Assembly: GCA_024207135.1 (NCBI GenBank)
Contig: CP042428.1
Span: 1,612,001 to 1,676,000 of the forward strand
Source: Arthrobacter sp. C2
Lineage (GTDB): Bacteria > Actinomycetota > Actinomycetes > Actinomycetales > Micrococcaceae
Direction of reading: 5' to 3'
DNA length: 64,000 nucleotides
Shown: piece after piece, positions 53,606 through 55,936 of the stretch
Numbering within the stretch: position 1 is the stretch's first letter
Layout: each line of letters starts with the position of its first letter
Translations under genes and position numbers: made by a program
Notes under the pieces: generated by a model
Seen by the model: the letters and a program-made list of their open reading frames with translations, nothing else
Databases searched by the model: none
Told to the model about the DNA's origin: nothing

Positions 53606-54160
53606 TTAGGCTTCTTCGGTGGCGGCTTCGGCAGCAGGTGCCTCGGCCTCGGCAGGTGCTTCAGCAGCGCCACCGTTTGCTTCTTCGAGCTTTGCACGCA
53701 GTGCTTCGATGGTGCGGACTGCGGCGGAAGCCGGAGCCTGCAGCACACCGGCAACACGTGCCAGCTGGAACTCACGCGATTCAAGGGCTGCCAGTGCGGC
53801 AACTCCGGCTGCGTCAAGGGCCTTGCCCTCGAAGAAGCCGGTCTTGATGATGAGCTGCTTGTTGTCCTTGGCGAAATCCGTGAGGCTCTTAGCGGCAGCG
53901 ATTGCGTCGCCCTTGATAAAGGCGATAGCAGTCGGGCCAGCAAGCTGGCCTTCGAATGCTTCGATGCCGGCTTCCTTTGCTGCGATACCAGTCAAGGTGT
54001 TCTTCACAACCGCGTACTTGGTCTCCTGACCAAGTGAGCGGCGAAGCTGCTTGAGCTGCGCAACAGTAAGCCCACGGTATTCGGTCAGGACAGCGGCGGT
54101 CGACTCCTTGAAGTCGGCGGTGATTTCCTCAACTGCGGAAACCTTAGTCGGCGTTGCCAT
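53606..54160 (-). CDS. rplJ: 50S ribosomal protein L10
   Basis: Base of the L7/L12 stalk and usual repressor of its own operon. The 184-residue product has VSAVEEITADFKESTAAVLT, EYRGLTVAQLKQLRRSLGQ, KYAVVKNTLTGIAAKEAG and an Ala/Glu-rich C-terminal end. It is preceded by a recognisable L10 leader. Confidence 0.97.
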   Translation of the reverse strand: MATPTKVSAVEEITADFKESTAAVLTEYRGLTVAQLKQLRRSLGQETKYAVVKNTLTGIAAKEAGIEAFEGQLAGPTAIAFIKGDAIAAAKSLTDFAKDNKQLIIKTGFFEGKALDAAGVAALAALESREFQLARVAGVLQAPASAAVRTIEALRAKLEEANGGAAEAPAEAEAPAAEAATEEA

Positions 54161-54370
54161 AACACTCCTTCCGGGGTATAGATCTGAAACCTGTCAATCT
54201 GGCCCGGTCAGGAGTACTGACATAAAAAACGCCCCATGCAGATGCACGGGGCGGAAAGAACGCAACAGTATTGCGGAAAATTCACTTCGTTCACCTGCGC
54301 AGGTCGTCCTTTGTGGGACTTTCGGAGTCTTACCGCATAAACAGCAATCCTCGACCGACGGTCTTCGGTA
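54161..54370 (-). ncRNA. L10 leader with attenuator
   Basis: The ~200-nt leader carries GAGGATTGC, TAAGACTCCGAAAGTCCC and ACGACCTGCGCAGGTGA, close to the conserved kink-turn/stem elements of the bacterial L10 leader family. It ends in the terminator CGCCCC-A-TGCA / TGCA-C-GGGGCG followed by TTTTTT (54224-54253). L10(L7/L12)4 binding would be expected to lower rplJL expression. Confidence 0.82.
54224..54253 (-). terminator. rplJ attenuator terminator
   Basis: An 11-bp stem (one mismatch) with a 2-nt loop runs directly into TTTTTT on the minus strand, about 65 nt before the rplJ ATG. It sits inside the L10 leader rather than at the end of a gene. Confidence 0.85.
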
Positions 54371-54376
54371 GTTCCA

Positions 54377-54406
54377 AGCCTAACAGCGGAACGCCACCGG
54401 CTCCAA
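54377..54406 (-). promoter_or_regulatory. Candidate rplJ promoter
   Basis: TTGGAG (54401-54406) and TAGGCT (54377-54382), 18 bp apart. It starts the L10 leader and lies about 60 nt past the small-RNA terminator. Confidence 0.55.
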
Positions 54407-54467: not shown

Positions 54468-54646
54468 AAAAAGCGACGGGCCCCTCAGGTTCCGCAACTT
54501 GGGGGAAAGCGGAAGGGAGGGGCCCGTCTGTGCAGCAATGCAACTTGGGGGAACGCATTGCTGCGGTATCACGCTCGGGGCGGGGCTTGGGGTCTCCGCC
54601 GTGGAGCGCGTGGTGACATAGTCACCCGTCGCAATCAGATCGCGAC
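54468..54646 (-). ncRNA. Candidate small RNA with two C-rich hairpin loops (6C-like)
   Basis: Read on the minus strand, a ~180-nt region contains GTCGC/GCGAC and GGTGAC/GTCACC stems, then hairpin A, a perfect 10-bp stem (GCAGCAATGC/GCATTGCTGC, 54532-54564), then hairpin B, a 12-bp stem (GACGGGCCCCTC/GAGGGGCCCGTC, 54475-54528) enclosing TTCCGC/GCGGAA. Hairpin B runs into GCTTTTTCC, an intrinsic terminator. The loops of A and B are nearly identical: both read TTCCCCCAAGTT. Paired C-rich loops recall the actinobacterial 6C RNA, though that family has six or more Cs per loop and here there are five. It has its own candidate promoter and a separate promoter for rplJ lies downstream. Expression is not shown. 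Confidence 0.65.
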
Positions 54647-54652
54647 CACCTA

Positions 54653-54680
54653 AGCCTATCAGGAATGTGCCATCCGACAA
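54653..54680 (-). promoter_or_regulatory. Candidate promoter of the small RNA
   Basis: TTGTCG (54675-54680) and TAGGCT (54653-54658), 16 bp apart. The -10 is identical to that of rplJ. Confidence 0.45.
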
Positions 54681-55225: not shown

Positions 55226-55936
55226 TTAGGAAGCGTCAGGCAGAACTCGGGTGACGTTGGAGTCAACCGCGATGCCCGGGCCGAACGTGGTCGTCAGGGT
55301 CGCCTTGGTGATGTAGCGGCCCTTGGAGGAGGAAGGCTTCAAACGAAGAACCTCATCCAGTGCTGCTGCGTAGTTCTCTGCAAGCTTCTGCGCATCGAAG
55401 GAAACCTTGCCGATGATGAAGTGCAGGTTCGAGTGCTTGTCGACGCGGAAGTCGATCTTGCCACCCTTGATGTCGTTGACGGCCTTGGCGACGTCCATGG
55501 TGACGGTGCCGGTCTTCGGGTTCGGCATCAGGTTACGGGGACCCAGCACCTTACCCAAGCGGCCAACCTTGCCCATGAGGTCAGGGGTTGCAACCGCTGC
55601 GTCGAAGTCGGTCCAGCCGCCAGCGATCTTGGCGATCAGGTCGTCCGAGCCAACGAAGTCGGCGCCGGCTGCGATTGCAGCCTCTGCCTTGTCGCCGTTC
55701 GCGAACACGAGGACGCGGGCGGTCTTGCCGGTGCCGTGGGGAAGGATCACGGTGCCGCGAACCATCTGGTCCGCCTTGCGAGGGTCAACGCCCAAGCGGA
55801 AAGCGACCTCAACGGTCTCGTCGGCCTTCGAGAAGGCGACCTCCTTGGCCAAGGCAATTGCCTCGACCGGAGCGTAGAACTTGTCTTCTTCGATCTTCGC
55901 CGCGGCGGCTACGAATGCTTTACTGCGCTTTGCCAT
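55226..55936 (-). CDS. rplA: 50S ribosomal protein L1
   Basis: Protein of the mobile stalk at the E site and repressor of rplKA in many bacteria. The 236-residue product has [60 protein letters not shown] and the C-terminal [20 protein letters not shown]. It is 159 bp downstream of rplK. Confidence 0.98.

Follow-up and report, generated by a model that had tools for sequence, protein, structure and literature searches.

The spacer between the ribosomal protein genes rplA and rplJ in the window (the whole stretch of 64,000 nucleotides of Arthrobacter sp. C2 DNA analysed here) very probably encodes, on its minus strand, a small RNA of about 180 nt that is transcribed as a unit of its own. We read this RNA as 6C-type but diverged, with three loops and at a new site. 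The case for an independent small RNA rests on loop conservation, stem covariation in two clades and a −10 box found in 25 of 25 loci; as judged from sequences, the comparative evidence for a small-RNA gene, as the original prediction had it, is strong. The genome (G000) is a single contig of 4.56 Mb, and the rplJ genes most similar to its own among named loci are mostly those of Paeniglutamicibacter. The spacer is about 1.07 kb long (1065 bases) and carries the RNA on the strand of both flanking genes, with the 3′ end of the RNA 308 nt from rplJ. The features of the locus are as follows.

55226..55936, minus strand: rplA (L1; TIGR01169, 326.5 bits), upstream neighbour of the RNA, same strand.
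54675..54680, minus strand: putative −35 box TTGTCG, a hexamer of the TTG type with 16 nt between it and the −10 box.
54653..54661, minus strand: extended −10 box TGATAGGCT, of the form TGnTAnnnT.
54468..54646, minus strand: predicted small RNA, ~179 nt (fold z −9.75; array of three hairpins found here in all 15 genus genomes).
54612..54645, minus strand: two short 5′ hairpins, UCGCGAUCUGAUUGCGA and GGUGACUAUGUCACC, from folding.
54570..54610, minus strand: hairpin H1, loop ACCCCAAG at 54593-54586; double-sided changes at 6 of 13 pairs.
54532..54564, minus strand: hairpin H2, loop CCCCCAAG at 54551-54544; double-sided changes at 4 of 11 pairs.
54475..54528, minus strand: hairpin H3, loop CCCCCAAG at 54505-54498; double-sided changes at 9 of 18 pairs.
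54468..54472, minus strand: U-run, putative intrinsic terminator, from the sequence.
54215..54386, minus strand: L10-leader-like region, a separate element between the RNA and rplJ (RF00557, 23.8 bits, cut-off 44).
53606..54160, minus strand: rplJ (L10; NF000955, 157.8 bits), downstream neighbour of the RNA, same strand.

The original prediction described two C-loop hairpins on the minus strand, with outer stems of 10 and 12 bp and C-runs of five. Both hairpins are present, but a third, H1 (54610-54570), had been missed. H3 has the 12-bp outer stem, followed by an inner stem of 6 bp, and doubles as the putative terminator stem; H2 measures 11 bp, counting a G-U as its innermost pair, and 99% of its cells are paired in the alignment. 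The loops of all three hairpins read CCCC(C)AAG, with runs of 4, 5 and 5 Cs in the window RNA, such that the predicted five holds for H2 and H3 but not for H1. The sequence said to be shared, UUCCCCCAAGUU, is indeed present in the loops of both H2 (54553-54542) and H3 (54507-54496). The 178-nt segment has a folding energy of −90 kcal/mol, compared with an average of −55.8 for shuffled versions (z −9.75), none of 200 of which folds as stably. When the 1065-base spacer was resampled under a first-order Markov model, none of 20000 samples had a triple CCCCAAG pattern. The two short 5′ hairpins, likewise absent from the original prediction, resemble inverted repeats seen by eye in relatives.

The 5′ end of the RNA is placed from the −10 box and the 3′ end from the U-run (54472-54468), which had been predicted, as had the promoter-like pair: TTGTCG, a 16-nt spacer, and the hexamer TAGGCT (54658-54653) preceded by TGn. 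The TGnTAnnnT element lies ahead of the first C-loop in all of the 25 loci examined for it, out of 37 array-bearing loci (duplicates included), against a background of 7 of 1065 80-nt windows in a sample of the same genome; it is 45-47 nt from the first C-loop in Glutamicibacter types and 66-73 nt in the others. Only the 11 closest relatives listed (L011-L024) consistently have a TTG-type −35 hexamer at 16 nt, which is mostly weak or absent elsewhere. The window's promoter pair is not listed by a generic sigma-70 promoter scan (0 found), nor H3 by a generic terminator scan, and the U-run is missing in some relatives (L020, L024).

We consider it very unlikely that the array is instead a cis element, either a 3′ UTR of the rplA operon or a leader of rplJ, controlling L1/L10 expression. 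The RNA does share its strand with rplA and rplJ, ends 308 nt short of the latter and is followed by the L10-leader-like region; however, it has a conserved promoter box of its own, its distance to rplJ varies (the first C-loop is 353 to 632 nt upstream), and the two sibling RNAs described below neighbour other genes. Nor is the small RNA a member of RF00557, since the L10-leader-like region is a separate element that scores below its own cut-off; at gathering threshold, Rfam reports one tRNA in the whole window and nothing else. At its end, some 60 nt ahead of rplJ, the L10-leader-like region has a strong terminator-like hairpin with U6 (54253-54230), and transcription attenuation is possible there.

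Within a search region extending at most 1.5 kb upstream of rplJ, every one of the 15 genus genomes has three C-loop hairpins at this spot. So do 22 of 58 named Micrococcaceae loci (L026-L083), among them Glutamicibacter, Galactobacter and Zafaria; some strains are in both sets. The array was not seen within that distance of rplJ in 36 of the 58, which are mostly Arthrobacter and Sinomonas and also include two Glutamicibacter-like loci (L054, L079), Zhihengliuella and Rothia MAG loci, Specibacter and an unclassified strain. Several Arthrobacter-type genomes (L035-L041 and others) have an rplA-rplJ spacer of about 1.5 kb, which by eye seems to contain an extra coding stretch in place of the C-loop RNA.

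Twenty-one members from the same rplA-rplJ spacer, picked to avoid duplicates, were folded and aligned, an alignment that had been proposed as a check. All 21 form three C-loop hairpins. The claim of selection on the loops is well supported by this alignment: every one of its 16 invariant columns, out of 145, is inside a loop, and the majority residue has a mean frequency of 0.90 in loops versus 0.57 elsewhere. Outside the loops, identity to the window RNA is 86-89% for the four closest members and 26-58% for the other 16. Loop sizes and closing pairs differ among the folded members.

The stems, in contrast, have diverged in sequence, with covariation in two clades. RNAalifold returned just 6 pairs on the mixed alignment, because stem lengths differ between clades, and covariation was then counted clade by clade. 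The alignment of the window's genus (11 sequences) has 42 pairs with double-sided changes in 19 (controls: shuffled mean 6.4, slid 2-5; 0 of 500 shuffles reach 19), and that of the Glutamicibacter type (9 sequences) has 44 pairs with double-sided changes in 28 (shuffled mean 17.6, slid 5-10; 0 of 500 reach 28); 93.2% and 94.4% of cells, respectively, are paired, percentages that are favoured by the structures having come from members of the alignments. The number of further pair types in the genus alignment does not exceed that of shuffles, 111 of 500 of which reach it. The predicted structure, the constraint on its loops and the conservation of its putative promoter box are thus demonstrated by comparison. 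A non-transcribed inverted-repeat or mobile DNA element would also present near-perfect inverted repeats, but the array keeps its position across genera with a promoter box upstream, and its loops are conserved on compensating stems; covariation already argues against this reading, which we regard as extremely improbable. A DNA search of 120 family genomes gave 8 matches, two of which (G083 and G067) were set aside as short (25 and 34 bases) and, by eye, lacking the C-loop pair.

The best Rfam match of the spacer is 6C (RF01066), in keeping with the likeness originally noted, and kinship with 6C is supported. The covariance search that had been suggested gave 35.7 bits (E 0.0092), the highest among Rfam families but under the gathering cut-off of 47. 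H2 and H3 align across the entire model as two neighbouring C-loop stem-loops, with H1 as a third; the loops lack the six Cs reported as typical of each 6C loop (PMC4046766). A genome-scale search of G000 with RF01066 returned no match, the window RNA included, at E ≤ 0.001 or 0.05. In the family, 27 of 240 genomes match at E ≤ 0.05, with 13 passing the cut-off. Four of the 27 belong to genus g21, and three of their matches lie between rplA and rplJ, at 49.6, 50.0 and 45.1 bits (two of the three over the cut-off); the fourth (G108, 33.2 bits) is located elsewhere. Genus g16 contributes 16 matching genomes, 11 of them over the cut-off, and CCCCAAG is present in 13 of the 16 RNAs, with neither rplA nor rplJ within the flanks fetched. 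At the five g16 loci examined for neighbours, a MarR-type gene is near four and a fatty-acid-CoA ligase gene near two of those. A candidate identification of the latter as acetyl-CoA synthetase was ruled out, since it is a long-chain-fatty-acid-CoA ligase in both loci having the gene, and synteny of the g16 RNAs with canonical 6C was dropped for that reason.

Canonical 6C in M. tuberculosis is placed in the Rv3660-Rv3661 spacer by PMC12395582, and the window RNA is not at a site of that type. Canonical sites vary: one (L251) is between genes for a type II/IV secretion ATPase and an acetate-CoA ligase, and another (L252) follows a penicillin-binding-protein gene. Across 198 genomes of the order, 46 match RF01066 at E ≤ 0.01, and none of 30 order-level 6C loci has rplA or rplJ in flanks of up to 1.5 kb. 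Three cpaF-like loci of the window's own genome have no CCCCAAG hairpin in their flanks, where weak hairpins around other C-runs are present; its acs gene was not found in the sequence stretches examined.

A covariance model built from the window's genus only (R1) matched 16 of the 240 family genomes, namely all 15 genus genomes and one g40 genome. Among chosen loci it found both of the Glutamicibacter type, both from g21 and four of five from g16 (E 0.001-0.0024; L314, the fifth, had E 0.69), and none of the four canonical 6C loci given (L222, L225, L239, L244) at E ≤ 1; it also gives E 0.022 to the opposite strand of the window locus. The RNA could be a lineage-specific small RNA that gained its C-loops independently of 6C, as suggested by its score under the 6C cut-off, its different loop tail, the canonical loci missed by R1, and the location of the g16 RNAs elsewhere, with examined neighbours (MarR, fatty-acid-CoA ligase) unlike those of the canonical 6C of L251. 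No synteny ties the g16, rplJ-linked and canonical 6C sets, because their spots and neighbours differ. Two of the three same-spot g21 RNAs nevertheless pass the 6C cut-off, and the 6C-scoring g16 RNAs both carry CCCCAAG in 13 of 16 cases and are found by R1 at four of the five loci given. We judge independent origin to be on the unlikely side, if by no means far-fetched; it would go with either of the mechanisms discussed below and so does not exclude them. Descent from 6C is probable, and the mixed RF01066 scores, the R1 results and the neighbour differences lead us to label it a 6C-like RNA that is probably a homologue without being a filed member of the family. A limited literature search found no paper on 6C RNA in Micrococcaceae and none on Glutamicibacter small RNAs with RNA-seq.

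A model-free search for triple CCCCAA in the 15 genus genomes gave 43 places versus 2 for the reversed control, of which not every one is an RNA gene, since repeats are included; outside the genus its occurrences were often low-complexity repeats, and the control gave similar counts (genera g17 and g20), so that the pattern was not counted there. The pair pattern CCCCAAG-N24-54-CCCCAAG occurs at 11 places in the window's own genome (control 3), five of them inside the window RNA and two siblings.

G000:C1 ~3506556-3506759, plus strand: RNA2, three CCCC(C)AAG hairpins within a long closing stem (L136, L163, L171).
G000:C1 ~1561378-1561530, minus strand: RNA3, downstream of guaB; three C-loops, one of them C7UAAG (L158, L167).

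RNA2 is a multibranch structure whose closing stem is an interrupted 18 bp; an invariant TTTTGCGAGTGGC element lies upstream of it, 23 of 58 pairs show double-sided changes (9 sequences), and a histidine kinase gene and a nitroreductase gene are on either side. A signature taken from its 5′ part occurs in 14 of the 15 genus genomes and in none of 225 others. RNA3 has a separate strong terminator-like hairpin besides its C-loop hairpins. Similar RNAs are present in four other genus genomes (L144, L145, L146 and L168), with guaB within the fetched stretch in all except L146 and about 1.6 kb off in L168. Eight of the nine loops of the three RNAs are CCCC(C)AAG, the ninth being C7UAAG. RF01066 has no match at E ≤ 1 in the sibling loci L136, L144 and L145. 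R1 picks up RNA2 weakly, in six genomes at E 0.004-0.0075 and in L136 at E 0.005, and scores RNA3 at E ~0.0002 in L158 and L144 and hardly in L168 (E 0.38); these scores are no proof of common descent, because shared loops drive them. The siblings are a more surprising part of these findings than the window RNA itself. We suggest, tentatively and as a rather unlikely reading, that the three RNAs form a shared-motif network in the window's genus, jointly titrating one RNA-binding protein or a common set of G-rich targets, in which case their summed expression would set the output.

Other C-loop arrays were seen in passing. Two similar leaders in one g3 genome (L153 and L154, G150) precede related putative secreted-protein genes and contain arrays of short CCCC-loop hairpins, which number about four and three when folded. 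Other genomes (L147, L149, L150) have further multi-hairpin stretches whose loops read C-run-AAG or CCCCAA, the one in L150 being near a carbon-nitrogen hydrolase gene and matching R1 at E 5e-7. A g18 genome (G141) has a hairpin repeat unit of the CTGGCCGGAACTTCCCCCAACGGTTCCGGCCAG type in at least three copies in a short stretch (L152).

It is somewhat probable, in our view, that the window RNA is a diverged 6C/B11-type trans-acting small RNA, with C-loops that pair with G-tracts near ribosome-binding sites. We infer this mechanism solely by analogy with B11/6C, whose C-loops are reported to repress mRNAs in M. abscessus and M. marinum by pairing with G-tracts at ribosome-binding sites (PMC10470900, PMC12395582). 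Either C-loop of the M. abscessus RNA can reportedly repress a target through a six-G tract in the 5′ UTR (PMC10470900), and for M. marinum repression is described for the C-rich terminator loop and no effect for the other C-loop (PMC12395582). The window RNA would accordingly be a free-standing, trans-acting molecule of about 180 nt, transcribed from its own promoter to its own terminator, that displays three C-rich loops, each ending in AAG, on stems of little sequence importance. The partners of the loops would be G-tracts, with CUUGGGG(G) as the best match, located at or close to the ribosome-binding sites of several mRNAs; pairing would block ribosomes and lower expression of the targets, and three equivalent seeds may confer redundancy or multivalency.

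A search of mRNAs for loop complements, also proposed originally, did not bear fruit, in that gene starts are not enriched. The pattern CTTGGGG-N3-14-RTG is hardly enriched (311 versus 281 for the reversed pattern); at 355 gene starts called by a crude script, CTTGGGG falls 0 times in the ribosome-binding window and no k-mer is enriched; and loop-target duplex energies are no better than with shuffled loops. This outcome is compatible with few targets, with a protein sponge or with the absence of such a function, and computed target lists were called inaccurate by the authors of the M. marinum study (PMC12395582). Within the sample, the strongest individual candidate target is a lipoprotein-like gene (L172:4538-5545, plus strand; G000:C1:104538) with an Rv1352/Rv1906c domain and no Pfam match, which has UUGGGGGAG before its start, eight bases of which are complementary to the C-loops.

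The conserved AAG of the loops is unexplained by plain C-G pairing, for which a C-run would do, and this is one of several observations that would suit a protein sponge, in which CCCC(C)AAG loops bind an RNA-binding protein that the window RNA and its two look-alikes titrate in the manner of CsrB/RsmZ and CsrA. The others are that three like loops sit on unrelated stems, that two more RNAs of the genome carry three such loops on different scaffolds, and that gene starts show no target enrichment. We know of no CCCCAAG-binding protein. The variation in loop sizes and closing pairs argues against a sponge, as does the RNA-RNA pairing reported for mycobacterial 6C (PMC10470900, PMC12395582), and we regard it as unlikely. 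Pairing of the loops with G-tracts is our preferred reading.

The 6C RNA is one of the few broadly conserved small RNAs of actinobacteria. The window RNA resembles 6C/B11 (RF01066) in its adjacent GC-rich hairpins, C-run loops, last hairpin acting as putative terminator and own putative promoter box, and differs in having three C-loops where 6C has two, 4-5 Cs followed by a conserved AAG, and a site between rplA and rplJ. Sponge RNAs of the CsrB/RsmZ type, which titrate CsrA, also present several like loops on variable stems, but with GGA as the loop motif in place of CCCC(C)AAG. In Staphylococcus, unpaired C-rich loops of RsaE and RNAIII pair with G-rich ribosome-binding sites; the likeness is in the C-rich loops, whereas host and scaffold differ. 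More than one C-loop RNA per genome has a parallel in the extra mycobacterial 6C copies of PMC9569102, but those are said there to fold like regular 6C, whereas the siblings in the window's genome have different scaffolds. What is new here is a lineage whose 6C-like RNA has a third loop, AAG tails and a site between ribosomal protein genes, and with two further RNAs sharing its motif, these soil bacteria offer a test of such loops as mRNA seeds versus protein-binding sites.
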